Source of the DNA: Halarcobacter ebronensis
GTDB lineage: Bacteria; Campylobacterota; Campylobacteria; Campylobacterales; Arcobacteraceae
Assembly: GCF_013201825.1 (NCBI RefSeq)
Contig: NZ_CP053836.1
Coordinates: 2,480,001 to 2,544,000, forward strand
Direction: 5' to 3'
Length of the DNA: 64,000 nucleotides
Shown here: piece after piece, positions 40,490 to 61,828 of the stretch
Layout of the letters: the number at the start of each line of letters is the position of its first letter
How positions within the stretch are numbered: the first letter of the stretch is position 1
Notes under the pieces: model-generated
Databases searched by the model: none
What the model saw: only the letters and a program-made list of their open reading frames with translations
Told to the model about the DNA's origin: nothing
Translations under genes and position numbers: made by a program

Positions 40490-40611
40490 TGTACTCTCCA
40501 TGTTTTTAATGGGAAAATTATAGATATTTATAATTCAATTGAAATAAATTATTTTTTCTCTTATGTATTTTTAGAACCAATTTTTTAATTTTATATTTTT
40601 ATATAATTATG

Positions 40612-40626
40612 TATATAAATATATAG
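40612..40626 (+). repeat. AT-rich module-border repeat, copy 1
   Basis: TATATAAATATATAG, identical to copies at 47134, 54034 and 54251 and in the same orientation. It is preceded by TATATTTTTATATA (about 40592-40605), a partner element also seen in other copies. It lies between the nickel operon and allA. Confidence 0.6.
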
Positions 40627-40665
40627 AAAAAATCTAAATGCTTATTATTGATTTTGATGTTTTAA

Positions 40666-40713: not shown

Positions 40714-41232
40714 TTAATCTCTTATTAAATAGATTTCTTCATTCCTCATATTAAATTCTATTTGTTCAACTATTAATTTTTCTTTTTTATTTGCTTCTGC
40801 TCTATCTAAAACATAAAACTCTTCTTTATCTTTTATGCAAATCAGTGGGAAATGCCAAATCCCTTTATTATAGTGAACACCTTGTTCTCCATTTGTTTCA
40901 AAAATTTCAAGAGTTGATAAATCTGGCTCCCTTCCTCCTAATGCAACTACACAATAAAATGGTTCTTTACTTCTTGGTAAAAATGTTTGAGAAAATAAAG
41001 GATGTTTTTCCAACATATCAATATGTAAAGGGAATTTTCTTTTATTACCTACATAAATATGTAAAGTTGTAATTCCATTCTTTTCATTTGTATCCATATT
41101 GCAAATTTCATAAAACTTTTCTGCAGACTCTCTATTTATAAGTATAGAGTCTCTATCCTCTTTTTCTATTACTTCACCAAATTTTTTAAAAGCTTCTCTT
41201 GTTAGAGGTTTTGGTTTTATTTCTACTCTCAT
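40714..41232 (-). CDS. allA: Ureidoglycolate lyase
   Basis: 172 aa. Splits ureidoglycolate to glyoxylate and urea in allantoin breakdown. The family features are EAFKKFGEVIE near the N-terminus, the cupin strands with FLPRSKEPFYCVVALGG, and GVHYNKGIWHFPLI with the conserved His residues. It is divergent from a TRAP transporter cluster. Urea release fits the nickel importer next door (urease needs nickel), but no urease is in the window. Confidence 0.88.
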   Translation of the reverse strand: MRVEIKPKPLTREAFKKFGEVIEKEDRDSILINRESAEKFYEICNMDTNEKNGITTLHIYVGNKRKFPLHIDMLEKHPLFSQTFLPRSKEPFYCVVALGGREPDLSTLEIFETNGEQGVHYNKGIWHFPLICIKDKEEFYVLDRAEANKKEKLIVEQIEFNMRNEEIYLIRD

Positions 41233-41730
41233 ACTCTACCTTTAACCCATCTTTTTTTGTTTAATATTAAACCCTACTATTTAATTTTGTTCGTTGTATT
41301 TTTCATTTTTATAGACAAAGCAACTTAACCACAATTGCCTCTTTCAAAGGTTTAATAATTCCAATATTATCATAAATACCATTACAATTGTAATATCTAA
41401 TTATAGATTTTGGTATGTAAATTTTTTAACCATGTCATGTATAGATTATATACATTTAGTATGTACAATTATTTGTAGAAAATATCTTTACAAAAATATT
41501 CTCAAGTTATAGAATACCTTTAGAAAACATATTTGAGGGATTAACTTTACTAAAACTTAATAGCAATATTACAAAATTCAACCTACGTAAATTGCAATAA
41601 AAAAAAATAATTATCTAGTAAGTATAAGTAACTCTTGAGTGTTTTAAACATATTAGCTCTTGCAATTCAAGAGCAATGTCATTAGGTGGATTTGTACAAA
41701 ATCTAAATTTTAAAAATGAGGAAAACAAAA
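41233..41730. promoter_or_regulatory. Divergent promoter region with palindromes
   Basis: About 500 bp without a gene between allA and dctP. Visible: a 14-bp palindrome ATTACAATTGTAAT (41381-41394); an inverted TACAT/ATGTA pair with 5-bp spacer (41452-41466); and a perfect 7-bp stem GCTCTTG/CAAGAGC (41656-41674) in the dctP leader. These are candidate operators and a leader hairpin. No regulator gene is adjacent. Confidence 0.45.
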
Positions 41731-42828
41731 ATGACTAACGAAAGAAGAGATTTTATTAAAAAAACAGGTTTAGCTGGAATTGGTGCAGCTATTGCTGTCC
41801 CATCAATTGCTAGTGCAGACTCTAAAAAGACATTTAGATGGAAGATGACTAACTGCTATGGTGCAGGTGCTCCTTTTTATTCTACTGGCCCTGGAAGTGC
41901 TAGCTACTTTTGTAAAAGAGTTGAAGAGTTAACGGATGGAAGACTTAGAATCAAACACTATCCTGCAGGTGAGTTAATTCCTGCTATGGAAGGTTTTGAT
42001 GCAGTATCAAAAGGAACAATTGAGATGAACTGGGGTAACTCATTTTTCTGGGCTGGTAAAACTTTTGCAGCACAATACTTTACAGCTGTTCCATTTGGAA
42101 TGAACTTCCAAGGAACAAATGCTTGGCTTCAATTTGGTGGAGGACAAGAGTTATGGGATGAAGTTTATAAACCATTTAATGTAATTGGTCTTGCTGCTGG
42201 AAATACAGGTGTTCAAATGACAGGATGGTTTAAAAAAGAGATTAAAGATGTAAAAGATTTAGATGGTCTAAGAATGAGAGTTCCAGGACTTGCAGGAAAA
42301 GTTTTAGAGCAACTAGGAGTTAGTGTTAAACTTCTTCCAGGTGGTGAAATTTTCCCAGCATTAGAAAGAGGTGTAATTGACGCGGCAGAGTTTGTTGGAC
42401 CATTTCAAGATAGAAGAATGGGATTCCAAAAAGCTGCAAAATTCTACTATACAACTGGATGGGGAGAACCAAGTAACACAACTGAGTGTTTAATAAACAA
42501 AGATGCGTGGGCAAGCCTTCCAAAAGATATTCAAGCAATAGTAAAAACTGTTGCAGCTGAGTGTAACCTAATGGGTCTATCTTGGTCAGAAGCAAATAAC
42601 TCAGAAGCATTAGAAGATTTAGTTAAAAACCAAGGCGTTGAAGCAAAAACTCTACCTGATTCAGTTATTGAAAAATTAAGAGAATTAACATTTGCAACTT
42701 ATGCTAAATTAACTGCAAATGATCCTCTTGTAAAAAAAGTTCACGAAAGTTACTTCGCTTTTAAAGCAATGCATGATGACTGGCAAAACAAAAGTGAAGA
42801 AGTTGTGATGACTAAGTTATCATCATGA
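41731..42828 (+). CDS. dctP: TRAP transporter binding protein, TakP-like
   Basis: 365 aa from ATG 41731, which follows a GAGG at 9 nt; the ATG at 41716 overlaps that site. The Tat signal ERRDFIKKTGLAG suggests export in folded form. NTGVQMTGWFKKEIKD, LRMRVPGLAGKVLEQLGV and GEIFPALERGVIDAAEFVGPFQD closely follow the pattern of TakP, a 2-oxoacid (pyruvate) binding protein; the metal-site Trp next to Glu is Phe here. The ligand is likely a small 2-oxo or oxamate-type acid given the enzyme downstream. Confidence 0.88.
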   Translation: MTNERRDFIKKTGLAGIGAAIAVPSIASADSKKTFRWKMTNCYGAGAPFYSTGPGSASYFCKRVEELTDGRLRIKHYPAGELIPAMEGFDAVSKGTIEMNWGNSFFWAGKTFAAQYFTAVPFGMNFQGTNAWLQFGGGQELWDEVYKPFNVIGLAAGNTGVQMTGWFKKEIKDVKDLDGLRMRVPGLAGKVLEQLGVSVKLLPGGEIFPALERGVIDAAEFVGPFQDRRMGFQKAAKFYYTTGWGEPSNTTECLINKDAWASLPKDIQAIVKTVAAECNLMGLSWSEANNSEALEDLVKNQGVEAKTLPDSVIEKLRELTFATYAKLTANDPLVKKVHESYFAFKAMHDDWQNKSEEVVMTKLSS

Positions 42829-43334
42829 AAAACCTACTTCTTATCTCAAAAAGACTAGATGCGTTAATTGAACGCATCGGTCAAATTAGCTCATGGCTTA
42901 TCTTTGTTCTTGTAGTTTTAGTTGCAGGAGATGTTCTATTTAGATACTTTTTTCACATTAGTTCAATTGCTGAACAAGAGTTTCAATGGCACATATTAGC
43001 TGCAATTGCAATGTTTGGTTCAGCTTATACTTTCCAACAAGGAGAGCACGTAAGAGTTGACCTTTTTTATCACAGTTATAGTGAAAAATTAAAGATATGG
43101 ATGGATTTATTGATTCCTTTATTAATTATTATTCCTTACTCAGTTTTTATTATCTATTTATCAAGTGATTATGTTGCCCAATCATTTACAACAGGAGAAG
43201 TTTCACCAGATCCTGGAGGTTTGCCATATAGATATTTAGTAAAATCTTTGATTCCCCTTGGATTTACACTTATTCTTATTCAAGCAGTTGCAATACTCTT
43301 TAGATCAATTACAAAGATAAAGGAAGGAAATTAA
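42825..43334 (+). CDS. dctQ: TRAP transporter small permease
   Basis: 169 aa with four hydrophobic helices; the motif SIAEQEFQWHILAAIAMFGSAYTFQQGEHVRVDLFY is the DctQ signature. The start overlaps the dctP stop (ATGA). It forms the inner-membrane complex with DctM. Confidence 0.92.
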   Translation: MKNLLLISKRLDALIERIGQISSWLIFVLVVLVAGDVLFRYFFHISSIAEQEFQWHILAAIAMFGSAYTFQQGEHVRVDLFYHSYSEKLKIWMDLLIPLLIIIPYSVFIIYLSSDYVAQSFTTGEVSPDPGGLPYRYLVKSLIPLGFTLILIQAVAILFRSITKIKEGN

Positions 43335-43337
43335 TTT

Positions 43338-44663
43338 ATGGATCCGCAAATATTAGCAATCATGATGGTTGTAAGCCTCTTTGCACTTATTCTACTTGGA
43401 GTACCAGTAGCATTTGCAATTGCAGGAGCTGGACTATTTTTTGGTCTAATTGGGGTAGATATGAATATGTTTAATCTACTGCCAGCAAGAATTTTTGGTG
43501 TACTTACAAACTATACACTTCTTGCAATACCTCTATTTGTATTTATGGGAATACTTTTAGAAAAATCTCGCTTAGCTGAAAAAATGCTAGATGTATTAGG
43601 ACTACTATCAGGTAAAAAACCCGGAGGAATGGCTATTGCAATAATAGTTGTAGGTATTCTTATGGGTGCTTCTACAGGGATAGTTGGTGCTACCGTTGTA
43701 ACTCTTACTATGATTGCCCTACCAACTCTTTTAAAAAGAAACTATAGTCATAGTGTCTCTTGTGGTACTATTTGTGCTTCGGGAACGTTAGGTCAAATCT
43801 TACCGCCAAGTTTAGTTTTGATTCTCTTGGCAGATATTAGTGGTGAAGCTATTGGTCCTTTGTTTGCTGCGGCACTAATGCCAGGACTTCTCCTTGCAGG
43901 ATGTTATATAGTCTATATTGTACTTTTGAGTAAATTTGCACCTCATCATGTTCCACCAATAGATGAAGAAGAGAGATCTCTATATTCAAAAAAGGAGTTA
44001 TGGATTGAGTTTTTTAAATCTGTTGCACCTCCTTTTGTTCTGATTTTTGCAGTATTAGGTTCAATTATTGGAGGACTTGCAGCTCCAACTGAAGCTGCTT
44101 CTATGGGTGCTATTGGTGCTCTTCTGATTGTTTTTCTTAGTAAAAGATTAACTTTGGATATCTTAAAAGAGACTTTATTTGAGACAATGAAAGTTACAGG
44201 TATGATTATGTTCGTTCTTATTGCCTCTCAAGTTTTTGGACTAAGCTTTAGAGGATTAGAAGGGGATTATTTAGTAGAAGATCTTTTTGCTGCAATACCT
44301 GGTGGAATGTGGGGTTCAATTATATTTATGATGCTTGTTCTTTTTGTTCTTGGATTCTTCTTAGAATGGATTGAGATATCATATATTGTTTTACCATTGG
44401 TTTTACCAATTTTCCATGCAATGGATATAGATATGATTTGGTTGGGGATTTTAGTTGCACTAAACCTTCAATCTTCATTTTTAACTCCTCCTTTTGGTTG
44501 GTCATTATTCTTCCTAAAAGGTGTTGCTCCAAAAGAGATTAAGACTATGGATATATATAAAGGGGTATTACCATTTATTGCAATTCAAATTATAGTAATT
44601 GGACTTGTAATGGTTTTCCCACAAATAGCAACTTGGCTACCAAAAGCAATAGGATGGATGTAA
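43338..44663 (+). CDS. dctM: TRAP transporter large permease
   Basis: 441 aa, about 12 hydrophobic helices. It contains LLAIPLFVFMGILLEKSRLAEKML and GTLGQILPPSLVLILLADISGE, the DctM ion/substrate motif. It performs sodium-driven uptake of the ligand delivered by DctP. 3 bp after dctQ and 3 bp before the proenzyme gene. Confidence 0.95.
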   Translation: MDPQILAIMMVVSLFALILLGVPVAFAIAGAGLFFGLIGVDMNMFNLLPARIFGVLTNYTLLAIPLFVFMGILLEKSRLAEKMLDVLGLLSGKKPGGMAIAIIVVGILMGASTGIVGATVVTLTMIALPTLLKRNYSHSVSCGTICASGTLGQILPPSLVLILLADISGEAIGPLFAAALMPGLLLAGCYIVYIVLLSKFAPHHVPPIDEEERSLYSKKELWIEFFKSVAPPFVLIFAVLGSIIGGLAAPTEAASMGAIGALLIVFLSKRLTLDILKETLFETMKVTGMIMFVLIASQVFGLSFRGLEGDYLVEDLFAAIPGGMWGSIIFMMLVLFVLGFFLEWIEISYIVLPLVLPIFHAMDIDMIWLGILVALNLQSSFLTPPFGWSLFFLKGVAPKEIKTMDIYKGVLPFIAIQIIVIGLVMVFPQIATWLPKAIGWM

Positions 44664-44666
44664 AAT

Positions 44667-46262
44667 ATGCAAAATTTACCAATAACGCAAACTTCAAAAA
44701 ATGGCATGGTGGTTTCACCCCATCATGCTGCTTCAGATGCTGGAGTTGAAATTTTAAAACAAGGGGGAAATGCTATTGAAGCTGCAATTGCTATAGCCTC
44801 TTCTTTATGTGTACACTACCCACATATGACAGGAATAGGTGGAGATGCTTTTTGGCTAATCTATGATCCAAAAGAGGGTGTTAGTTTTATTGAAGCTTCT
44901 GGATACTCTGGCTTTGATGTTAATATGAGTTTGTACTCTGGGTTAAAAACAATACCTTTTAGGGGAGCACTTGCTGCAAATAGTGTAGCAGGAGCTGTCT
45001 CAGCTTGGAGTTTAGCTTATGAAAAAAGTAAAAAAGAGTGGGATGGAAAGATCTCTCCTTCAATATTAGTAAGTGAGGCTGTAAACTCTGGTAAAAATGG
45101 TGTTATAGTTTCACAATCTTTAGCACAAACGTTAAAAGATAAAAAAGAAGAACTTATCGGGGATGAAGAGTTTGCTAAAATCTATTATCCAAACAATAAA
45201 GATTTAAAACAAAATGATATTTTAGTTCAAGAGAAACTCTCAAAGACTTTAGAAACATTAGGGAAAAATGGTTTTGATGATTTTTATAGGGGTGAGATTT
45301 CAACTAAAATAATAGATGATTTTCATAAAAAAAATGGTTTATTAAATAAAAAAGATTTAGAAAAGCACCAAGCAATTTGGAAAAAACCTTTAAAAATGAA
45401 ATTTTCAAAAGGAGAGCTTTATAATGCTTCTGCTCCAACACAAGGAATTGCATCACTTATGATTTTAGGGCTTTTTGATAGATGGAAAGAAAAACTTCCA
45501 GATAAAGACTCTGCAAATCATATTCACCTTCTTGTTGAGGCTACAAAAATTGCCTTTAGACATAGAGATATAATGGATACAGCTTCTACGAGTGAGGAAC
45601 TTCAAGCTTGGTTAGAGCCAGAGTATTTGGATAAATTAAGTAAAGAGATAGATTTGGATAAAGCACTTCCTTGGGGAGAAAAAACCCAAGCAGGAGACAC
45701 AACATGGTTTGGAGCAATAGATGATAAAGGAAGAGTAGTTAGTGCCATACAAAGTATTTATCATGAATTTGGAAGTGGTTTTACCCTACCTCAAACTGGT
45801 ATTGTTTGGCAAAATAGAGGTTGCAGTTTTAGTTTAGATGAAACTCATATTCAAACATTAAAACCACATAAAAAACCTTTCCATACATTAAATCCAGCAA
45901 TTGCACTATTTGATGATGGAAGAGTTATGGCTTATGGAACAATGGGTGGGGATGGACAACCACAAACCCAAGCAGCACTCTTTTCAAGATATGCCTATTA
46001 TGATGAAGATTTACAAAATACTATTAACAATCCCAGATGGCTTTTAGGTAGAACTTGGGGTAACTCTTCACAAAGCCTAAAATTAGAAGCAAGAATAGAA
46101 GATGAAATAATAAATGAGCTTCTAAACAAAGGGCATGAAATAGAGATGTTAAAAGAGTTTGATTCGGCTGTTGGGCATGCAGGAGCAATAGTTTTAAATC
46201 CTTCAAAAATTTATGAAGGTGCTTATGATCCAAGAAGCGATGGAAAAGCTTCAAGTTTTTAA
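44667..46262 (+). CDS. Gamma-glutamyltransferase-family, oxamate amidohydrolase-like
   Basis: 531 aa Ntn-hydrolase proenzyme. NGMVVSPHHAASDAGVEILKQGGNAIEAAIA and HMTGIGGDAFWLIYDP lead the large subunit. Self-cleavage is expected before Thr345 (AGDTTWFGAID), giving the N-terminal nucleophile of the small subunit, which has YGTMGGDGQPQTQ. No signal peptide, unlike secreted GGT. The pattern resembles HpxW, which hydrolyses oxamate to oxalate and ammonia. Linkage to a TakP-like transporter and allA favours a small amide acid over glutathione. HpxW identity is inference. Confidence 0.75.
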   Translation: MQNLPITQTSKNGMVVSPHHAASDAGVEILKQGGNAIEAAIAIASSLCVHYPHMTGIGGDAFWLIYDPKEGVSFIEASGYSGFDVNMSLYSGLKTIPFRGALAANSVAGAVSAWSLAYEKSKKEWDGKISPSILVSEAVNSGKNGVIVSQSLAQTLKDKKEELIGDEEFAKIYYPNNKDLKQNDILVQEKLSKTLETLGKNGFDDFYRGEISTKIIDDFHKKNGLLNKKDLEKHQAIWKKPLKMKFSKGELYNASAPTQGIASLMILGLFDRWKEKLPDKDSANHIHLLVEATKIAFRHRDIMDTASTSEELQAWLEPEYLDKLSKEIDLDKALPWGEKTQAGDTTWFGAIDDKGRVVSAIQSIYHEFGSGFTLPQTGIVWQNRGCSFSLDETHIQTLKPHKKPFHTLNPAIALFDDGRVMAYGTMGGDGQPQTQAALFSRYAYYDEDLQNTINNPRWLLGRTWGNSSQSLKLEARIEDEIINELLNKGHEIEMLKEFDSAVGHAGAIVLNPSKIYEGAYDPRSDGKASSF

Positions 46263-46279
46263 ATTAAGGATAAATATAT

Positions 46280-47086
46280 ATGAATGAATTATTAGTTTTA
46301 TTGCCAATTCTGCTTGTCTGTGGTGTAGTTGCTGGAGTATTAGCAGGACTGTTAGGTGTAGGGGGAGGAATTGTTATTGTTCCAATGCTTTACCACGTCT
46401 TTATCTATATGAAGATAGATATCTCTATTGCAATGCCTTTAGCAATTGGTACCTCACTATCTACAATAGTTGTTACCTCAATTATCTCAGCAAGAGCTCA
46501 CCATAAAAAAGGTGGAATTGATTGGGATCTTGCAAAGAGATGGGTCCCTTTTGTTATTATTGGAGTTTTAATTGGTTCATTTTCATCTAAATATATTGAT
46601 GGAAGTAGCCTAAAGTTTATGTTTGGTGTTTTACTTTTGCTTGTTTCACTTAATATGATAATTAGCAACTTCAAAAAACTTGTAATTGCAGATGAATTAC
46701 CAGGGAAAGCTGGTCAATCAATCTATGCTGCACTTGTAGGTGGTTTTGCTTCACTTCTTGGAATTGGAGGGGGAACACTTTTAGTTCCACTTTTAACCCT
46801 TTATTCTTTTCCAATTCACAGAGCTGTTAGCACTGCTTCTTTATTTGGACTTATTATTAGTATTCCAGCAACTGTTGGTTATGTTATTGTAGGTTCTGGA
46901 GTAGAAAATTTACCTTTTGCATCAACTGGATATGTTAACTGGTTAGCATTTATAATTCTTGTTCCAATGACAATGATATTTGCACCACTTGGTGTAAAAC
47001 TAGCTTATATCTTAAATGTAAAACAACTAAAATTTGCCTTTGCAATATTTTTAGCTTGTGTTGGGGTTAAAATGGTATTGGTTTAA
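46280..47086 (+). CDS. TauE/SafE-family anion permease
   Basis: 268 aa with about eight hydrophobic helices and the duplicated glycine-rich motif LAGLLGVGGGIVIVPML and FASLLGIGGGTLLVPLL. Family members export sulfite, sulfoacetate or other small organic anions. It is 17 bp after the proenzyme gene and probably ends that operon, so it could export a product such as oxalate (inference). Confidence 0.87.
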   Translation: MNELLVLLPILLVCGVVAGVLAGLLGVGGGIVIVPMLYHVFIYMKIDISIAMPLAIGTSLSTIVVTSIISARAHHKKGGIDWDLAKRWVPFVIIGVLIGSFSSKYIDGSSLKFMFGVLLLLVSLNMIISNFKKLVIADELPGKAGQSIYAALVGGFASLLGIGGGTLLVPLLTLYSFPIHRAVSTASLFGLIISIPATVGYVIVGSGVENLPFASTGYVNWLAFIILVPMTMIFAPLGVKLAYILNVKQLKFAFAIFLACVGVKMVLV

Positions 47087-47094: not shown

Positions 47095-47133
47095 TCCCAA
47101 AAAACCTCAGTCTAATATTTTTATATAAAAATA

Positions 47134-47148
47134 TATATAAATATATAG
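47134..47148 (+). repeat. AT-rich module-border repeat, copy 2
   Basis: TATATAAATATATAG, preceded by TTATATAAAAATA. It lies 103 bp before the SDR gene, between the TRAP cluster and the lipid operon. Confidence 0.6.
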
Positions 47149-47250
47149 GAAAAATAAAACTCACTTTTAATCTTTTAATTTTTATAAATAAACATTTAGC
47201 CCATACAAAATATATATAAAGTCATTATAATTAGACAAAAGGAGCTTACC

Positions 47251-48009
47251 ATGGAAAATCAAAAAAGAATTTGGCTTGTGGGAGGTAGTTCAGGTATAGG
47301 ACTAGAACTTGTGAAACTTCTTTTAGAAAATGATTACAAAATAGTAGTTAGTGCAAGAGATGCCACCAGCTCAAAAGATTTAATTGACTTATGTTTAGCA
47401 TATCCCCAAAAACTTTATTTATTAAATTTTAATGTGTTAGAAGAGGATTTAAGCCTAAAAATAAAAGAGGCTTGGAGTATCTATAATGGACTTGATATTT
47501 GGTTTTACAATGCTGGAGTTTATGATATGATGAGTATTAAACAATGGGATAAAAATAAGTTTATAAATATGAACAGTACCAACTATCTGGGTGTAATAAA
47601 AATTATGACAGATATTGTTCCATATTTTATAAAACAAGGGCATGGAAGATGGATTTGGAACTTGAGTTTATCAACTTATTTTGGTCTTCCAAATGGGGGA
47701 GGATACTCTGCTCCAAAAGCAGCACTATTAAATTTAGCCCAATCCATACAACCTGAATTAAAACTAAACAATATAAACTTACAAGTGATAAACCACGGAT
47801 TTGTAAAAACAAGACTAACTGCAAAAAATAGTTTTGATATGCCCCAACTAATGACTCCACAATATGCAGCTAAAAAGATATATGAAGGTTTAGAAAAAAA
47901 TAGTGGATTTGAGATAAGTTTCCCATTTAAACTAGGTTTCTTTTTGAGATTGTTAAATCTATTACCATATAAAATATCTTTAGCTCTAACTAAAAAGATG
48001 CTGCCATGA
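47251..48009 (+). CDS. Short-chain dehydrogenase/reductase
   Basis: 252 aa classical SDR: cofactor loop GGSSGIGLELV at about 10-20, NAG in WFYNAGVY, and the catalytic Tyr-x3-Lys in GYSAPKAAL. A clear AGGAG precedes the ATG. First gene of an eight-gene plus-strand operon ending with DUF3833. SDRs occur in the same gene set in other bacteria that carry the FAD/DUF1365/methyltransferase trio. Confidence 0.9.
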   Translation: MENQKRIWLVGGSSGIGLELVKLLLENDYKIVVSARDATSSKDLIDLCLAYPQKLYLLNFNVLEEDLSLKIKEAWSIYNGLDIWFYNAGVYDMMSIKQWDKNKFINMNSTNYLGVIKIMTDIVPYFIKQGHGRWIWNLSLSTYFGLPNGGGYSAPKAALLNLAQSIQPELKLNNINLQVINHGFVKTRLTAKNSFDMPQLMTPQYAAKKIYEGLEKNSGFEISFPFKLGFFLRLLNLLPYKISLALTKKMLP

Positions 48010-48425
48010 TTGCCAAAAATTATGCCGATTTTTTTGAAACACTTAATGAGAATATTAGTATTGTTGAATATAAAAAATATTTTGATGAAGGAACCCTTTT
48101 TAAAGACCCTTTCCATGAAGTAAAAGGGGTGGGAAATATCTATAATATTTTTATGAAAATGTATAAAAACCTTGATAATCCAAAATTTAAAATTGAAGAG
48201 ATAGTAGAAAATGATACAACTTCATATATTAAATGGATTTTTTATTTTTCCTTTAAAGGAGAGGAAAAAAGAGAAAGTTTTTCAGGTGTTAGCAGGGTTT
48301 ATTTTAATGATAAAAAAATGGTGATTAGCCATGAGGATTTTTGGGATGCAGCTGAAAATATATATGAAAAGATTCCACTTTTAAAATACTTTATAAAACT
48401 AGTAAAAATAAAAATAAAAAATTGA
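48006..48425 (+). CDS. NTF2/SnoaL-like protein
   Basis: 139 aa with the cone-shaped alpha+beta fold pattern: an N-terminal helix with YKKYFDEGTLFKDPFHEVKG, then strands SYIKWIFYFSFKG and SGVSRVYFNDKKMVISHEDFWD. Catalytic role unknown; family members act as small isomerases or stability factors. The start overlaps the SDR stop (ATGA). It is the second gene of the lipid operon. Confidence 0.82.
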   Translation: MIAKNYADFFETLNENISIVEYKKYFDEGTLFKDPFHEVKGVGNIYNIFMKMYKNLDNPKFKIEEIVENDTTSYIKWIFYFSFKGEEKRESFSGVSRVYFNDKKMVISHEDFWDAAENIYEKIPLLKYFIKLVKIKIKN

Positions 48426-48426
48426 T

Positions 48427-49680
48427 ATGAAAACAAAAACATTTCTAATCTATGCACTTTTAGCTATGCCCCTATCAATAGTAGGGCTTCCGCTATATAT
48501 CTATCTACCTACATTTTATGCCACACAAATTAATATAAATATAGCTACTGTTGGATTGATTTTATTTATTGCAAGACTTAGTGATGTTTTTACTGATCCG
48601 TTAATTGGATACTTAAGCGATATTTCACAAAAAAAATTTAATAGCAAAAAACCAATAATGTTAATAGGTTCTATTATGTTAATATTTAGTTTTTATGCGC
48701 TTATTAATCCAAATATGGATTTTGCAAATCTTTGGTTACTTATTTTTTCCATCTTAATCTATTTTGCATGGAGTTTAATTACTATCCCTTATTTAACTTG
48801 GAGTTCAGAACTAAGCAATGATTATTATGAAAAAACTAAACTTAATAGTTATAGGGAGAGTTCTACAATAATAGGACTTGTTTTAGCTCTTGTATTACCC
48901 TATTTTTTTACACAAAATATTATTAAAGAGAAACTTGATAGTCTTTTTTATATTTTTACTTTTTTATTTATCCCTTTTCTAATAATTACAATGTTGACAA
49001 TCAAAACACAAAATAGCCAAAAATATTCTACTTATAACTTTAATGATATAAAAATGCTCTACAAAAAAATACCAAATCTAAAATCTCTTCAAGTTGGTTA
49101 TTTCTTAAATAATCTTGCAAATGCAATCCCCGCAACACTCTTTTTACTTTTTATAGAAACAATTATTGAAAAAAAAGAGTTTGCCGATACTATTTTGATT
49201 TTATATTTTATTGCAGGGGTGATTGCCCTACCTTTTTGGACTCTATTATCAAAAAGAATTGGTAAAAAAAGAGTTTGGATATACTCTATAATTTTGGCTT
49301 GTAGTGCCTTTTTCTTTGTAGTTTTTTTACAAAAAGGTGATCTATTACTATTTTCCATAATATCTTTTTTAAGTGGTCTTTGTTTGGGTGCAGATATTGC
49401 CTTCCCAACCTCTATTCAAGCAGATATTGTACAAAAATCAAAAAGTTTAGAAAAAAACTATTCAGGACTCCTTTTTGGCATATGGACTATGCTTACAAAA
49501 TTTGCCCTTGCAATCTCTGTTGTTATAGCTTTTGGAATTTTAGGACTTGTTGATTTCAATAAAGATGAACTTACAAAATTATCAATATATACTCTTATTT
49601 TTCTTTATGGATTTTTACCTATTTTATTAAAACTTTTTTCATTATTTTTCATACGTAAATATGCTGATATAATAGATTAA
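48427..49680 (+). CDS. MFS transporter of the GPH (MelB) type
   Basis: 417 aa with about 12 hydrophobic helices. RLSDVFTDPLIGYLSDISQKKFNSKKPIMLIGS is the MelB-type loop. Sugar or lipid-like substrate unknown. One base after the NTF2-like gene, so part of the same operon; related MFS genes occur in comparable clusters of other phyla. Confidence 0.87.
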   Translation: MKTKTFLIYALLAMPLSIVGLPLYIYLPTFYATQININIATVGLILFIARLSDVFTDPLIGYLSDISQKKFNSKKPIMLIGSIMLIFSFYALINPNMDFANLWLLIFSILIYFAWSLITIPYLTWSSELSNDYYEKTKLNSYRESSTIIGLVLALVLPYFFTQNIIKEKLDSLFYIFTFLFIPFLIITMLTIKTQNSQKYSTYNFNDIKMLYKKIPNLKSLQVGYFLNNLANAIPATLFLLFIETIIEKKEFADTILILYFIAGVIALPFWTLLSKRIGKKRVWIYSIILACSAFFFVVFLQKGDLLLFSIISFLSGLCLGADIAFPTSIQADIVQKSKSLEKNYSGLLFGIWTMLTKFALAISVVIAFGILGLVDFNKDELTKLSIYTLIFLYGFLPILLKLFSLFFIRKYADIID

Positions 49681-49752
49681 CAAACATTTTTTCAATACAA
49701 AAAGAGTAAAAAAACATATAAAATATTAAAAAATAAAAAGGGGATCAAAGTT

Positions 49753-50277
49753 ATGAGATTAATAATTGTTTTATTTTTTTCACTTTGTATCGCTTACGCT
49801 AAACAAACAAAAACACCCTTGGCTGTGGAATATGTAAACCCTATTAATTTTAGTGGACTTTGGTATGAGATTGCACGAACTTATAACAGTTTTGAAAAAA
49901 ATTGTGTGGCAGCTACTGTTGAATATAAACTAGAAAAGAATAATAACTATAGTGTTACAAATAGATGTTTTGAACATGAAATAGATGGGAAATTGATAGT
50001 TTACAATGGTACAGTTCAAGCCTTAGAAAAAGATAATATGGCGAAAATCAAAAGTACCTATTTTTGGATATTTAGTAAAAACTACCAAATTATATATTTA
50101 GATGATTATCAAACTGCTGTAATGGGTGACAAAAATATGGAAAATGTATGGATAATGAATAGAGAACCTTTTTTGGATGAAAAAAAATTAAAAGATATTC
50201 TTGGTATGTTAGAAAATTATATGAATATTCAAGAGTTTATTTTTACAAAACAAGATAAAAATGGGAAATATAAATAA
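49753..50277 (+). CDS. Lipocalin, bacterial Blc-like
   Basis: 174 aa with a signal peptide (cleavage near AYA). The lipocalin kernel FSGLWYEIARTYNSFEKNC and a later IYLDDYQTAVMGD are visible. No clear lipobox, so it may be soluble in the periplasm rather than an outer-membrane lipoprotein. It likely binds fatty acids or lysolipids. The next gene starts at its stop codon. 72 bp precede it, the largest gap in the operon. Confidence 0.88.
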   Translation: MRLIIVLFFSLCIAYAKQTKTPLAVEYVNPINFSGLWYEIARTYNSFEKNCVAATVEYKLEKNNNYSVTNRCFEHEIDGKLIVYNGTVQALEKDNMAKIKSTYFWIFSKNYQIIYLDDYQTAVMGDKNMENVWIMNREPFLDEKKLKDILGMLENYMNIQEFIFTKQDKNGKYK

Positions 50278-51524
50278 TGGAAAAAAGATTTAAAATAGCT
50301 GTTTTAGGCGGAGGAATTAGTGGATTATCTACTGCTTATCTTTTAAGTAAAAAACATGAAGTTGATTTGTATGAAAAAGAGCCAAGATTAGGTGGTCATG
50401 CTAGAACAACCATGGTAGAAGAAAATGGCAAAAAGTTTGGTGTTGATACTGGTTTTTTAGTCTTTAATTATGAAACCTATCCCCTACTTACTAAACTATT
50501 TTCTATGCTTGATGTAAAAATAGAAAATAGTGATATGAGTTTTGCATTTTGGGATACAAAAACAAATATAGCTTACAATGGGCAATCTTTAAGTGGAATG
50601 TTTATACAAAAAAGAAATATTTTTAATTTTAAACACTATAAAATGATCTTTGATATTTTAAAATTTAATAAAAATGCAAATGATGATTTAGAAAAAAATT
50701 CATCTAATTTAGATAAAAGTTTAGGGGAATATTTAAAACCATATTCAAGATATTTTAAAGAAAGATACCTAATCCCAATGGGAGCTTCAATTTGGTCAAC
50801 TCCCTCAGATAAAATGAATGAATTTCCAGCAAGAACATTTTTAACTTTTTTTAAAAACCACGGATTGTTGGGAGTAAATACTCATCATCAATGGTTAACA
50901 GTTAGTGGAGGTTCTATAAATTATGTAAATAAAATCCAAATGCAAATTTCTGGAAAAGTGATAGTTAATTCAGATGTAATAAAAATAAGAAGAAAAAAAG
51001 ATTTAGTTGAATTAATTCATCAAGATGGTAAAAAAAGTCTTTACGACAAAGTTATTTTGGCTATGCATGCACCTGAGGCTTTAGAGATTCTTGAGGATGC
51101 CAGTGAAGATGAAAAGAGAATTCTATCTTGTTTTAAATATAAACAAAACGATGCCCTTCTTCATAATGATACTACAGCTTTATATCCTAAAAAAGAAGCC
51201 TATGCAGCATGGAACTATAAAACAGAAGGGAAAGATAGCTCTATTACCCTCTCATACTGGATAAATAAATTGCAAAATCTAGAATCAAATAAAGAGTATT
51301 TTGTCTCACTAAATGAAACTAAAAATTTATCAAATGTAATAGAAAAAATCTCCTATTCTCATCCTCAATTTGATCAAAAAGCAATAGATATGCAAAAACA
51401 AAGGGGGATAATAAATGGACAAAACAACACCTATTATGCTGGAGCTTATTGGAGATATGGCTTCCATGAAGATGGTTTATATAGTGCAAATACTATAGCA
51501 AAAGAGTTTGGATGTGAACTATGA
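50277..51524 (+). CDS. FAD-dependent amine oxidase-like oxidoreductase
   Basis: 415 aa. Dinucleotide motif VLGGGISGLSTAYLLSKKHEVDLYEKEPRLGGHART in the first 45 residues, typical of the NAD(P)-binding flavoprotein always found with DUF1365 and a cyclopropane-synthase-like methyltransferase. In alpha-proteobacteria a related flavoprotein desaturates methylated fatty acyl chains for furan fatty acids; this role is inferred here. It overlaps both neighbours. Confidence 0.87.
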   Translation: MEKRFKIAVLGGGISGLSTAYLLSKKHEVDLYEKEPRLGGHARTTMVEENGKKFGVDTGFLVFNYETYPLLTKLFSMLDVKIENSDMSFAFWDTKTNIAYNGQSLSGMFIQKRNIFNFKHYKMIFDILKFNKNANDDLEKNSSNLDKSLGEYLKPYSRYFKERYLIPMGASIWSTPSDKMNEFPARTFLTFFKNHGLLGVNTHHQWLTVSGGSINYVNKIQMQISGKVIVNSDVIKIRRKKDLVELIHQDGKKSLYDKVILAMHAPEALEILEDASEDEKRILSCFKYKQNDALLHNDTTALYPKKEAYAAWNYKTEGKDSSITLSYWINKLQNLESNKEYFVSLNETKNLSNVIEKISYSHPQFDQKAIDMQKQRGIINGQNNTYYAGAYWRYGFHEDGLYSANTIAKEFGCEL

Positions 51525-52261
51525 GTCATCAATTTTTAGATGGAGTTATTTACCACAAAAGATTTTTACCAAAAGAGCATAAATTTGAGTATAAATTTTT
51601 TATGGTTGATATTGACCTACAAGAGTTAGATTCACTAAAAAATAGATTTTTTTGCCAAAATAGTTTTAATCTCTTCTCTTTTAATACAAAAAATCATTTT
51701 GGCAAAAGTGATGATTTTATAGAAAATGTAACCTATCTATTAAAATATTTTGATATTAAAAGGTGCCATAAAATGAGGTTTATAACCCTTCCTTCTATTT
51801 TAGGCTTTGTATTTAATCCAATTAGCCTTTTAATACTTTTTGAAAAAAACATCCCCACATATCTAATAGCAGAAGTTCATAACTATAATGGAGGAAGGGT
51901 TATTTATCCCACAAAATTACAAAGTGAAGATGGGATAAATTTTAAATCAAGTACAAAAAAAGATATGTATGTAAGTCCATTTTTTAAAAGGGAGGGGAAC
52001 TATGAGTTTAGACTTAAATATGATGAAAAACAACTCTTTCTGAATATTTTACTTTTTGAAGATGAAAAAAAGATGTTGTGTTCAACACTAAAACTAAAAC
52101 CATTAAATTTTAGTCAAACAAATATTTTAAAACTGTTTTTTAAACACACTTTTTTAACCCTATGGGTTGTTACAAGAACCCTTTATCAAAGTTTCAAACT
52201 AAAAAGAAAGGGTTTAAAATGGTCAAACCCAATTAAAGAGGATCAAATAAGGAGATTATAA
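51521..52261 (+). CDS. DUF1365 protein
   Basis: 246 aa. FLDGVIYHKRFLPKEHKFEYKFFMVDIDL is the DUF1365 start, with GFVFNPISLLILFE and AEVHNYNGG further on. The biochemical role is unknown; it is a constant partner of the FAD protein and the methyltransferase. It overlaps the FAD gene stop by 4 bp. Confidence 0.9.
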   Translation: MSHQFLDGVIYHKRFLPKEHKFEYKFFMVDIDLQELDSLKNRFFCQNSFNLFSFNTKNHFGKSDDFIENVTYLLKYFDIKRCHKMRFITLPSILGFVFNPISLLILFEKNIPTYLIAEVHNYNGGRVIYPTKLQSEDGINFKSSTKKDMYVSPFFKREGNYEFRLKYDEKQLFLNILLFEDEKKMLCSTLKLKPLNFSQTNILKLFFKHTFLTLWVVTRTLYQSFKLKRKGLKWSNPIKEDQIRRL

Positions 52262-53487
52262 TGAACTTTTTCTGGAAAAGAATAGGTGAAAAATTTTTAT
52301 CAAAAATTGAATATGGAGATTTGGAAGTTCAATTTCCCAACAATCAAATAAAAAAATTTGGCAATGGAACTTTCCCAAAAGCCAAACTTATTTTGAATAA
52401 TTGGGATCTATTTAGAAGATTATCTTTTTATGGTGATATAGGTTTTGCAGAAAGTTATATGGATAAAGACTTTGAATGTGAAGATTTAACCTCTCTAATT
52501 CAAATTGCACTTATAAACTCAAAACAACTTCAAACAAAAAGTGAAGATGAAAAAAAACTAAGTTCATATAATCTTTTTCCTATATTTAATAAAATTAAAC
52601 ATAATATGAGAAAAAATTCAAAAACAAAAGCACAAAAAAATATCTCAAAACACTATGATTTGTCAAATGATTTTTTTAAGCTCTTTTTAGATGATACTAT
52701 GATGTACTCCTCTGCTGTTTTTTCCCAAAATGATGAAACACTTTTTGAGGCCCAACAAAGAAAAATTGAGCTTCTAGCAAAAAAACTAAATCTAAAAAAA
52801 GACTCAAAAGTTCTGGAGATAGGTTCAGGCTGGGGAGCTATGGCTTTACATTTAGTAAAAGAGTATCAATGTGAAGTTAAAACTCTAACCCTATCAAAAG
52901 AACAAAAAAGATTATGTGAACAACGATTTAAAGAAAATAAAATAGAAGAATTTGTGGATGTTCTCCTAAAAGACTATAGGGATATGAATGGAAAATTTGA
53001 TGCAATTATTGCAGTAGAGATGTTTGAAGCAGTAGGTCAAGAATATTTTCATATTTTCTTTAAAAAATGTGAAGAACTACTAAAAGAAAATGGAGTTTTA
53101 GTAATGCAAATTATAACTATTCCTGATCAAAGATATAAATCCTATTCAAAAGGAACAGACTTCATCCAAAAATATATTTTCCCAGGGGGTCACCTTCCAA
53201 GTGTAAATAAAATACTTAATGTAACGTCAAAACATACAAAATTAAATCTTCTAAGCCTAGATGATTACACTGAACACTATGCAAAAACTCTAAATATATG
53301 GCATAAAAACTTTAAAGAAAAACTTGAAGAAGTAAAAAAGCTTGGCTTTGATGAGTACTTTATAAGAATGTGGGAGATATATCTTTGTTATTGTGAAGCT
53401 GGTTTTTTAACAAGAAATATCAATCTTATTCAAATATCTTTTACTAGATATGAGAATATGCAGTTAAATAAAGGATTAGTAGCATGA
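52261..53487 (+). CDS. cfa: Cyclopropane-fatty-acyl-phospholipid synthase family
   Basis: 408 aa SAM-dependent methyltransferase. HYDLSNDFFKLFLDDTMMYSSAVF and VLEIGSGWGAMALHLVKEY (motif I) are diagnostic; the catalytic-site EMFEAVGQEYF and FIQKYIFPGGHLPS follow. It acts on unsaturated acyl chains of membrane phospholipids. Given the FAD and DUF1365 partners it may make a methylated olefin rather than a cyclopropane ring. Confidence 0.92.
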   Translation: MNFFWKRIGEKFLSKIEYGDLEVQFPNNQIKKFGNGTFPKAKLILNNWDLFRRLSFYGDIGFAESYMDKDFECEDLTSLIQIALINSKQLQTKSEDEKKLSSYNLFPIFNKIKHNMRKNSKTKAQKNISKHYDLSNDFFKLFLDDTMMYSSAVFSQNDETLFEAQQRKIELLAKKLNLKKDSKVLEIGSGWGAMALHLVKEYQCEVKTLTLSKEQKRLCEQRFKENKIEEFVDVLLKDYRDMNGKFDAIIAVEMFEAVGQEYFHIFFKKCEELLKENGVLVMQIITIPDQRYKSYSKGTDFIQKYIFPGGHLPSVNKILNVTSKHTKLNLLSLDDYTEHYAKTLNIWHKNFKEKLEEVKKLGFDEYFIRMWEIYLCYCEAGFLTRNINLIQISFTRYENMQLNKGLVA

Positions 53488-54032
53488 AAAAGATTTTAAC
53501 AGTTGTAGCAAGCCTACTTACCATACTAATTTTTACAGGATGTTCAAAAATGCAAATAGAAGACTTTAATAACACAACTCCAGAGTTTATACCCCAAGAG
53601 TATTTCAATGGAAAACTTACAGCCTATGGCATAGTAAAAGATAGAAGTGGCAAAATCATAAAAAGTTTCAAAGGTGATTTAGTTGGAAGCTGGGATAAAA
53701 ATGGCATTGGAACTTTAGATGAGAAATTTGTCTATAGTGATGGGAAAAAACAAACAAGAGTTTGGAAACTTGTTCCAACAGGAGATAAAACCTTTGATGC
53801 AACAGCAGGGGATATAGTAGGAACAGCAAAAATGATTGCAAATGGAAATACAGTTATGATTGATTATGTAATGAGAGTTCCATACAATGATTCAACAATA
53901 GATATTAGTGTAAAAGATTGGTTACATCTTCAAAGTGATGGGGTGATAATAAATCATTCAAAAATGAAAAAATTTGGTTTTACAGTTGGGGAGTTAGTAA
54001 TCACTATAATAAAAGATTTCCCAAGAAATTAG
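53484..54032 (+). CDS. DUF3833 lipoprotein
   Basis: 182 aa with a lipoprotein signal (LTILIFTGC, Cys20). The mature part has GKLTAYGIVKDRSGKIIKSFKGDLVGSWDKNG and GTAKMIANGNTVMIDYVMRVPY, the DUF3833 pattern. Function unknown; it co-occurs with cyclopropane-synthase-like clusters. It overlaps the cfa stop by 4 bp and ends the operon; a repeat copy begins 2 bp after the stop. Confidence 0.88.
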   Translation: MKKILTVVASLLTILIFTGCSKMQIEDFNNTTPEFIPQEYFNGKLTAYGIVKDRSGKIIKSFKGDLVGSWDKNGIGTLDEKFVYSDGKKQTRVWKLVPTGDKTFDATAGDIVGTAKMIANGNTVMIDYVMRVPYNDSTIDISVKDWLHLQSDGVIINHSKMKKFGFTVGELVITIIKDFPRN

Positions 54033-54033
54033 A

Positions 54034-54048
54034 TATATAAATATATAG
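54034..54048 (+). repeat. AT-rich module-border repeat, copy 3
   Basis: TATATAAATATATAG, 2 bp after the DUF3833 stop and 235 bp before parA. Confidence 0.6.
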
Positions 54049-54063
54049 AGATATTTAAATTTC

Positions 54064-54088
54064 CTATATATAATATAAAAATATATAG
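54064..54088 (+). repeat. Variant and inverted repeat copies
   Basis: An inverted CTATATATAATATA followed by the variant TATAAAAATATATAG (54074-54088, one mismatch). Together with copies 3 and 4 they make a 230-bp AT-rich array before parA. Confidence 0.5.
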
Positions 54089-54230
54089 AATAAATTTAAT
54101 ATTCTCTATTTTATAGGCTTTTAAAATCCATCAAACCACTTAAAATCAGAATTTTTATTCAATAAAATCCTCATCACTTATATTTTTTATTCTTACTAAA
54201 GCTATTTTAATATAATATTTTTCTATTAAA

Positions 54231-54265
54231 TATAAAAATATATAATTTTATATATAAATATATAG
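54231..54265 (+). repeat. AT-rich module-border repeat, copy 4, at parA promoter
   Basis: TATAAAAATATATAA (54231-54245, a variant) followed by the exact TATATAAATATATAG (54251-54265), ending 17 bp before the parA start. The place matches the operator/centromere of type Ib partition systems. Confidence 0.6.
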
Positions 54266-54282
54266 TAAAAATAGGAATATAG

Positions 54283-54879
54283 ATGTCATATGTTGTTTAT
54301 AGTATAAAAGGTGGTGTTGGAAAAACAACACTATCTGTTCAAATTTCACAGATGTTAGGATTAACCTATGTAACTAATGATTCTCACTCTTCTGCTCACA
54401 ATCTTATGCCAGAGGAAAAGGGGTTTTTAGTTTCAAAAGAGGAGTATGAAGAGATACCTTTTGATGAAAATGTTGTTTATGACTTTGGTGGATTTAAAGA
54501 TACAAGAATCAATAGTATAATCAAACAAGCAAAAAAAGTAATCATCCCAACACTTACTTCTATTGTTGACCTACAAGCAACTATGGCAACACTTAAAGAT
54601 GTAAAAGAGATAAATGAAAACATAATAATTGTGGTTAATAGAGCAAAAAACAATAACAAAGCAGTTGAACTAAAAGAGTATCTAAATGAAGAGATTAAAA
54701 AACTTTACAAAGATATCAAAATACCTATAGTTTTTGTTAGAGAATCTTCTGTTTTAGAGGATTCACTTTTTGATTGTGAATATGTAGAGACAAAAGCAGG
54801 AGAGAATAGATTTAAAAGACATATCTATAGAAATGCAATAGAAGATATGCAAGAGATAAAAAAACTACTAAAGGCATAA
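54283..54879 (+). CDS. parA: Small ParA-family ATPase
   Basis: 198 aa. The deviant Walker A KGGVGKTTLSV is at about 9-19, followed by DFGGFKD (A') and VVNRAKNNNKA. No N-terminal DNA-binding extension, so it is of the small (type Ib) ParA class. AGGA precedes the ATG by 6 nt. The RHH gene follows after one base. Such pairs partition plasmids; here it is flanked by chromosomal genes (rpoC, rpsL in the same window). Confidence 0.88.
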   Translation: MSYVVYSIKGGVGKTTLSVQISQMLGLTYVTNDSHSSAHNLMPEEKGFLVSKEEYEEIPFDENVVYDFGGFKDTRINSIIKQAKKVIIPTLTSIVDLQATMATLKDVKEINENIIIVVNRAKNNNKAVELKEYLNEEIKKLYKDIKIPIVFVRESSVLEDSLFDCEYVETKAGENRFKRHIYRNAIEDMQEIKKLLKA

Positions 54880-54880
54880 T

Positions 54881-55150
54881 ATGAGCTATGCAGATAAACT
54901 AAAACAAAACTCATCTAAAATAAAAACAAATGAAAGTGTTTTAGAAGAGAAAAATACAAAAACTAAAAAAGCTGGAAGACCTAAAAAGAAAAAAGAAGAG
55001 GTAAGAAACAGTGCTATTCCAGTAGCTCTAAGTCAAAATGAAAAAGAGTGGATAGAAAATCAAGCTTTAGAGATGTCAAAACAAGTGGGGATAAAAATCA
55101 CAACATCTGCTTGGATGAGAATGACCCTTTTAAAGGGGATGAAGAAGTGA
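54881..55150 (+). CDS. Ribbon-helix-helix ParA partner
   Basis: 89 aa. A basic, disordered N-terminal half (KAGRPKKKKEEVR) and a C-terminal ribbon-helix-helix (SAIPVALSQNEKEWIENQALEM, ITTSAWMRMTLLKG). The layout matches ParG/omega-type centromere-binding proteins, whose flexible tail stimulates the ParA ATPase. It would be expected to bind the AT-rich repeats upstream of parA. It is cotranscribed with parA. Confidence 0.72.
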   Translation: MSYADKLKQNSSKIKTNESVLEEKNTKTKKAGRPKKKKEEVRNSAIPVALSQNEKEWIENQALEMSKQVGIKITTSAWMRMTLLKGMKK

Positions 55151-61540: not shown

Positions 61541-61828
61541 TTAATCTTTAGGAAGTAGCTTCACAGGTACGATTTGGAACTCGTCCATATTCCATACACC
61601 ATTTTGTACATATGGTTCATTTTCTAACCACTCATTTATCTCATCATCACTTTCAAAATCAACAAAAAGTGTAGAACCAACCATTTGATCCTCTTCAATT
61701 AAGGCACCTGCATTTATGATTTTACCTTCTGCTATCATTTTTTTTGCACCAGCAACATGTGCATCTCTAACTTCAAGTCTTTTTTCTAAGGCACCGTCAT
61801 TATCATAGGCTATTACTAGGTATTGCAT
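61541..61828 (-). CDS. YciI-family protein
   Basis: 95 aa from ATG 61828 behind GGAG at 6 nt; a TTG 12 bp upstream would overlap that site. MQYLVIAYDNDGALEKRLEVRDAHVAGAKKMIAEGKIINAGAL is the YCII start, with the DPY-type ENEPYVQNGVW later. YciI proteins are small dimeric proteins of unclear catalytic role. It stands alone with its own terminator. Confidence 0.92.
   Translation of the reverse strand: MQYLVIAYDNDGALEKRLEVRDAHVAGAKKMIAEGKIINAGALIEEDQMVGSTLFVDFESDDEINEWLENEPYVQNGVWNMDEFQIVPVKLLPKD

Follow-up and report, generated by a model that had tools for sequence, protein, structure and literature searches.

A chromosomal ParA–RHH-type gene pair with an upstream TATATA repeat array near yciI–rpoC in Halarcobacter ebronensis and its relatives

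1. Introduction

What does a gene pair of the plasmid partition type do in a bacterial chromosome? In bacteria, RHH-type ParA systems are known mainly from plasmids, and bacterial chromosomes are usually credited with an HTH-type ParB; the archaeal SegAB is a chromosomal exception. The question is raised by the window, that is, the whole stretch of 64,000 nucleotides analysed here, which belongs to the 3.17-Mb, single-contig genome of Halarcobacter ebronensis (G000 below) and carries a short parA, a small partner gene and an AT-rich repeat array ahead of them (Table 1). The first-pass annotation had taken this for a type Ib-like arrangement placed in a chromosome, and the short ParA, the RHH-type partner, the upstream repeats and specific extra sites were indeed all found. 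According to two accounts (PMC5016525, PMC7308502), type Ib systems have upstream repeats, an RHH protein that serves as repressor and centromere protein and has a flexible activating tail, and a ParA motor.

At about even chances, we infer that the pair is a chromosome-resident ParA–RHH segregation cassette working like type Ib or SegAB. If this is true, a conserved chromosomal ParA–RHH cassette with phased repeats would show how a plasmid-type centromere can be domesticated. The cassette also marks a hot spot for integrase islands beside rpoBC in the family.

Table 1. Features of the cassette and its surroundings (positions in the window)
Feature	Position	Strand	Basis or remark
Satellite site 2	40583–40632	+	exact 15-mer at 40612–40626; intergenic, DUF4198 / ureidoglycolate-hydrolase-like gene
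Satellite site 1	47115–47154	+	exact 15-mer at 47134–47148; intergenic, ahead of SDR operon
AT-rich repeat array, putative operator and centromere	54034–54271	+	exact TATATAAATATATAG copies and degenerate copies
Exact TATATAAATATATAG in array	54034–54048 and 54251–54265	+	sequence match
One-mismatch TATATAAATATATAG in array	54074–54088	+	sequence match
TATAAT, possible -10 of parA	54211–54216	+	sequence
parA, 198 aa	54283–54879	+	open frame, deviant Walker A KGGVGKTT, Walker B-like VVYDFGG
RHH-type partner, 89 aa	54881–55150	+	basic GRPKKKK tail; putative beta-alpha-alpha C-terminus
yciI, rpoC neighbour, anchor of the conserved place	61541–61825	-	in relatives, 3′ end = island attachment site

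2. ParA and Its Partner

The description of a short 198-aa ParA with a deviant Walker A motif followed by an 89-aa partner holds, since both are open frames, the motif reads KGGVGKTT and the two genes of the window are one base apart. ParA passes the Pfam CbiA cut-off (E 3.7e-9), and its AlphaFold model has a single domain (pLDDT 77). Sequence searches of the PDB gave no useful match; with the model, Foldseek retrieved ParA-family structures, namely ParA 3cwq (E 2e-7) and the TP228 ParA/ParF entries 5u1g and 4e07, the identity to ParF in these alignments being 14–17%. At all 19 loci with a close orthologue (see Section 4), the protein is 197–198 aa long and carries KGGVGKTT from residue 9. That is to say, it has the traits of a type Ib ParA: small size, no N-terminal DNA-binding domain and a deviant Walker A with the signature lysine. 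A relaxosome pair of the VirC1/VirC2 type is not supported, the VirC1 match being below the cut-off (15.2 bits vs 24).

The partner had been called an RHH protein, and this label stands by profile homology to relatives, without a direct match: the window protein gave no RHH match in Pfam, NCBIfam or PHROGs. Among nine partners of distant ParAs that were scanned, three are above the Pfam cut-offs for RHH_7, NikA-like or RHH_1, three gave matches below threshold, and three, all plasmid partners, gave none. When the window partner family was aligned by hhalign with a family of six distant relatives, which includes the three above the Pfam RHH-type cut-offs, the result was 97.4% with E 1e-11 over 57 columns, which suggests an RHH-type protein. 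The AlphaFold monomer (pLDDT 68.6) begins with a loose N-terminal part, followed by two helices in the expected order, and the strand is missing from it; Foldseek with this monomer returned nothing. The strands of RHH proteins pair in dimers, and therefore a monomer without a strand neither proves nor refutes the RHH fold. The partner is 87–94 aa long at all 19 loci, with an N-terminal tail strongly conserved among them, so the small RHH partner with a flexible N-terminus known from type Ib is present here by homology only.

3. The Upstream Repeat Array

The AT-rich array had been said to stop 17 bp before parA, and its final copy does end 17 bp ahead of the ATG, with TATATAAATATATAG exact at 54034 and 54251 and with one mismatch at 54074. 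At up to two mismatches, this 15-mer has 10 matches in the window against 1.6 expected (maximum over 100 shuffles, 6). Direct or inverted repeats ahead of the operon, another type Ib trait, are thus found. In the 150 bp ahead of parA, TATATA occurs 6.05 times on average over the 19 loci (range 2 to 10), compared with 0.72 in 69 control stretches taken between other genes at these loci; the 25 controls with less than 20% GC average 1.20.

These units are also regularly spaced. Start-to-start distances of 10 bp were observed 29 times against 1.0 expected in shuffles, and those of 20 bp 13 times against 1.1, counts which come from 19 related arrays and are therefore, like the TATATA means, not independent. 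Because 23 bp is enriched as well (10 vs 0.8), and likewise 8, 9, 12 and 33 bp, the register is not purely a multiple of 10. The phased form TATATA-N4-TATATA is present in 17 of the 19 arrays and absent from G058 and G115. Relative to a TATAAT, phased duplexes, TATAGA-type halves included, lie downstream at 12 of the 19 loci, upstream at 11 and on both sides at 7; a sigma-70 scan at the array found promoter-like sites no more often than in shuffles (9 vs 8.2). In G058, a second array (L035:877-999) without parA–RHH lies about 9 kb from the pair of that genome; it agrees with the parA-proximal array of G058 in 102 of 123 columns (83%), including the RBS region, and the comparison scored 148 against 67 for the best of four control intergenic stretches.

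4. Distribution and Selection

Close ParA orthologues (E <= 1e-40) were found in 18 of 104 family genomes, the window's own included, at 19 loci; the cassette is therefore dispensable, as it is missing from the other 86 at this threshold. The first-pass annotation had allowed that the closest kin might be solitary regulators without repeats. This did not turn out to be so, for both genes and a TATATA-rich upstream region occur at 19 of 19 close loci, where the pair is intact and the partner lies 0–2 bases downstream of parA. In a set of 100 related genomes, close orthologues of both genes were found in the same five besides the window's own, and weaker matches of ParA and partner occurred together in four more. 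A scan of named genomes gave five loci, including two Aliarcobacter MAGs, Poseidonibacter lekithochrous and Arcobacter caeni, all among the 19; L077–L081 are the same places as G117, G118, G137, G103 and G115 and were counted once.

For both genes dN/dS is about 0.1 (11 loci), with synonymous changes near saturation, and ParA and its partner are under strong purifying selection. The ParA+RHH tree is weakly supported (4 of 16 branches), and ParA+RHH distances follow those of yciI only modestly (r 0.55, p about 0.02, 13 genomes), from which it follows that exchange of the pair has also occurred. A search of the literature, covering titles and the starts of abstracts and mostly without subscription papers, found, among the papers listed, no report describing such chromosomal systems in this group.

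5. Chromosomal Place and Islands

The pair usually lies in one chromosomal region. In 12 of the 13 genomes with both on one contig, it is at most 37 kb from yciI, which adjoins rpoC; the exception is G020, where the distance was taken to rpoC. In five genomes the pair and yciI are on separate contigs, and for G004 and G058 tens of kb is the minimum separation. We considered and rejected a fixed distance from the origin: with dnaA at base 304, the pairs of G000, G014 and G033 lie at 0.79–0.81 of the chromosome because the rpoC neighbourhood is shared, and that of G020 lies at 0.36. G109 has two cassettes, at G109:C1:2368705 and 2064897, separated by about 304 kb; the second is some 338 kb away from yciI, has an integrase-like gene nearby and is flanked on either side by a copy of a 454-aa gene. 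Since G020, G004, G058 and the second G109 copy have the cassette elsewhere, it must be able to move. Its orientation relative to yciI is the opposite one in G101 (L134), G105 (L135) and G118; compared with G115 and G122, the cassette of G101 and G105 is inverted relative to yciI–rpoC, which suggests a local inversion at the same place.

The same place receives islands. Whether or not they carry the pair, several genomes have integrase-like genes adjoining yciI (by BLAST or by N-terminal likeness); such genes are also seen beside yciI in the pair-less G012 and G001, with a remnant in G013. The 3′ end of yciI forms part of direct repeats that bracket islands of about 21–28 kb and differing content in G014 (16 bp), G033 (31 bp), G126 (24 bp), G105 (45 bp) and G109 (22+15 bp), and this end of yciI, beside rpoC, is thus a recurrent island attachment site in the family. 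The pair lies outside the island by about 68 bp (G014), 410 bp (G033), 1,085 bp (G126), 925 bp (G105) and 10 kb (G109), by which membership of the integrase islands is ruled out in all five genomes with definable ends; in G115, G101 and G122 the pair is about 0.05–0.9 kb from yciI with no island between. The suggestion that the pair stabilises an integrated accessory element is therefore not supported. Of the seven loci where pair and yciI are over 20 kb apart, island membership is settled for five, G100 and G108 having no defined repeats; in G108, moreover, yciI has no integrase-like gene beside it. A second yciI-type copy beyond the pair was seen only as partial matches in the stretches scanned. 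In G010 and G002 the region is present and the pair absent. No array-type site scoring above 14 occurs in 12 yciI-region stretches scanned. Taken together, the pair looks like a long-term resident of an integration hot spot.

Phage cargo was rejected, as the phage-looking neighbours in G014 and G033 gave only weak excisionase/AlpA-type matches (Pfam, PHROGs). ParA had no match in phage records, neither of two short peptide patterns matched an encoded relative in IMG/VR, and the 52 stretches picked up in viral contigs by a motif scan have a single match apiece.

A pair of plasmid origin, shifting from one chromosomal place to another and lingering near islands without any function for the host, would agree with the other locations and the second G109 copy, the opposite orientations and the modest fit with yciI distances just described. 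Against this, dN/dS is low over near-saturated synonymous divergence, the pairs are intact at 19 of 19 loci and in the same region in 12 of 13 measurable genomes, and there is no recombinase frame within the 1.1-kb unit, so that a mobile or relict cassette is judged highly improbable. Its own array of evenly spaced AT-rich repeats, and the same spot being occupied in many relatives, make it probable that the cassette is functional in the chromosome rather than left over from a plasmid.

6. Satellite Sites

Matching sites about 7 and 14 kb from the array had been pointed out, and both are real. The 3.17-Mb genome has just four exact copies of TATATAAATATATAG, all on one strand and all within the window (40612, 47134, 54034 and 54251), the two extra copies preceding the array by 6.9 and 13.4 kb. 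With at most one mismatch, there are 12 matches in the genome, eight of them with one mismatch (one of these in the array), and a reversed-pattern control gives 9; because these totals barely differ, the clustering of the exact 15-mers, not copy number, counts as evidence.

At the inner loci, TATATA-N4-TATATA near pairs but outside arrays was confined to the window and G122, where it lies 5.9 kb upstream. The background is 1 match in about 373 kb of other loci, a count which omits L045, overlapping the window's own array, and includes L093–L095, which are near pairs. In ten complete genomes, 400 kb of outer stretches about 10–40 kb from pairs hold this form twice (G108 and G109), and another 400 kb remote from pairs hold it once. 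The stricter TATATANWWATATATAG occurs twice in the inner 195 kb (G000 and G122) and in neither of the two 400-kb sets of the ten complete genomes. Two of 10 complete genomes thus have strict satellites outside arrays; the looser satellites of G108 and G109 represent one homologous site, which in G108 lies between a dehydrogenase-like gene and yciI. A PWM from 11 arrays gave a weaker candidate 3′ of the pair in G033 and another, of 16.5 bits, ahead of the SDR operon in the pair-less G010; a looser whole-genome pattern found few matches in six genomes, with controls alike. In summary, satellites exist, yet they are few and differ from genome to genome.

In the window, the ureidoglycolate-hydrolase-like gene at satellite site 2 opens a TRAP-transporter block, and satellite site 1 separates this block from the SDR-to-DUF3833 operon, which stops one base short of the array. 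These intergenic positions, one next to the ureidoglycolate/TRAP block and one ahead of the SDR operon, together with a G122 satellite that precedes a TetR-like/efflux operon, would suit an RHH protein that is chiefly a local repressor of parA–RHH and of the operons behind the satellites, in the way that omega of pSM19035 acts from parS sites to repress several promoters (PMC4498918, PMC5016525). Such a role as main function is nevertheless quite unlikely: strict satellites occur in only 2 of 10 complete genomes, the 47134 copy is clear of the likely -10 of the SDR operon, ending about 78 bp ahead of that element, G103 has the pair and the same efflux operon as G122 with the site missing, and the G108 site lies between two gene ends and not at a promoter.

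The satellites may also be traces of rearrangement. The window blocks 40714–47086 and 47251–54032 are each flanked by same-orientation repeat copies (40612, 47134 and 54034), and G014 has neither, its order being DUF4198, one dehydrogenase gene, then array and pair. It can be supposed that satellites are pieces or copies of the array left when blocks were inserted or when the cassette was duplicated, lost or moved, and are thus border marks without function, which would be compatible with the preferred explanation of the pair itself. The order in G122 (site, efflux operon, array), the G108/G109 site at the yciI-side border of a block, the gene-less array of G058 and the two cassettes of G109 are in line with this supposition. 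It is judged unlikely, as the window satellites share little with the array except the motif and AT-rich surroundings, the G122 satellite has an exact 27-mer in common with the window array that is absent from G122's own array, and the G108 satellite lies beyond the far side of the genes, a position that splitting of an upstream array alone cannot yield. The satellites of the window are either functional sites or repeat copies left by rearrangement.

The SDR...CFA-synthase-like...DUF3833 operon (47251–54032), which abuts the array in the window, lies elsewhere in 11 same-genus genomes, being followed by thiD- or cbiX-like genes in 10 of the 11 as judged by eye; in the regions upstream of it in these 11 genomes, the motif is missing apart from the G010 match.

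7. Plasmid Relatives

A freshly integrated plasmid as the main reading is ruled out by the single-contig genomes and the conserved place, and no obvious replication gene was seen among the frames beside the window pair. Because G000, G014, G020 and G033 are single contigs, there is no plasmid in sight for the cassette to serve. The search for homologous pairs proposed by the first-pass annotation gave close pairs within the family, in the 18 genomes counted above, and more distant relatives of ParA on plasmids: the plasmid ParAs are 24–41% identical, many over half the length (best 40 of 246 records), and the window partner has no plasmid match at E <= 1. At the nucleotide level, 212 plasmid records matched, 208 of them from Campylobacter, and the ten matches listed of these 212 are 72–74% identical over the promoter and the start of parA; two nucleotide-matching plasmids that were examined carry a different repeat sequence.

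Campylobacterota plasmids including pTet nevertheless have a ParA followed by a small RHH-like gene, and the chromosomal pair with its array could compete with the partition machinery of such incoming related plasmids, so that these would be lost. The patchy distribution beside an integration hot spot is consistent with this, and the lone ParA ParI of a Pseudomonas putida genomic island offers a precedent (PMC9178275). Interference usually needs shared specificity, however, and the divergent, often half-length plasmid ParAs, the partner without a plasmid counterpart and the differing upstream repeats of the relatives examined make plasmid loss an unlikely purpose.

8. Comparison with Known Systems and Proposed Mechanism

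Like TP228 ParF/ParG–parH, the cassette has a short ParA of about 200 aa starting at the Walker A motif, an RHH-type partner with a loose N-terminus and AT-rich repeats upstream and around the promoter, and the Foldseek matches are to TP228 structures. Unlike TP228, it is chromosomal and near yciI–rpoC, and its TATATA units are mostly in a 10-bp register, whereas parH is made of degenerate tetramer boxes with AT-rich spacers (PMC7308502). Carriage on a low-copy plasmid, which belongs to type Ib, is not found in these single-contig genomes, and because the cassette is carried on the chromosome, it is classed as working like type Ib and not as a plasmid partition system. The plasmid pairs of Campylobacterota (pTet and others) have the same gene order, similar sizes and KGGVGK and DFGGF in common with it, but they are plasmid-borne, with the ParA divergence given above (<=41%, best 40 of 246) and different upstream repeats. 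For delta/omega of pSM19035 with parS1–3, PMC4498918 describes RHH binding to iteron arrays at several promoters, which serves both partition and repression; that system differs in being a plasmid one, with 7-bp heptads, a delta of 284 residues and separate promoters. ParI shares a chromosomal position near an island but is described as an orphan ParA (PMC9178275); a ParI-type orphan was ruled out here, the partner being present at 19 of 19 loci and accompanied by repeats.

Among chromosomal systems, the cassette resembles in layout SegAB of Sulfolobales, described in PMC12284271 as a chromosomal ParA plus RHH protein whose sites lie directly ahead of segA and gather around the locus. What is seen here of such sites is an array at 19 of 19 loci (17 strict), the strict satellites of G000 and G122 only, the looser satellite of G108 and G109, and the gene-less array of G058. 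In contrast, SegAB is archaeal and has about 45–49 TCTAGA-type palindrome sites in S. solfataricus (PMC12284271), where the cassette has one array and few satellites. A bolder proposal, which we put forward tentatively and hold to be possible rather than probable, is that the cassette is a bacterial counterpart of SegAB: an RHH-based system of chromosomal segregation or positioning beside the usual ParABS, with a helically phased TATATA centromere at an rpoBC-side integration hot spot, selected in Arcobacter-type genomes and with satellites at the borders of inserted blocks. The few satellites, the presence of the pair in only 18 of 104 genomes and the lack of the strict phased form in G058 and G115 speak against the segregation reading.

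The anatomy, conservation and location of the cassette are observed, and whatever goes beyond them in the following scheme we infer. RHH dimers would bind TATATA half-sites side by side, on one helix face, around the parA promoter; this binding would both repress the operon and assemble a partition complex. Through its conserved N-terminal tail, the RHH protein may then contact and stimulate nucleoid-bound ParA, and the complex would tether or position its own chromosomal region, with no plasmid being maintained.

9. Other ParA-Type Loci

Further loci of related layout were seen in the course of the analysis. In the Campylobacter plasmids L195, L196 and L111, pTet among these, the ParA and RHH-like genes have the layout of a partition module, yet their annotation is only that of hypothetical proteins. 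A distinct second family of ParA plus RHH-like pairs (MQIIIYNQKGGVGKSM...) occurs in G020, G046 and G056 (L044:9239-10111, L039:10527-11385 and L040:286-1144). Finally, the window's own genome at L020 (G000:C1:1023975-1027565) and G014 at L021 both contain one more ParA-like gene, of about 227 aa and with GYKGGIGKS, ahead of a long frame that resembles P-loop NTPases.
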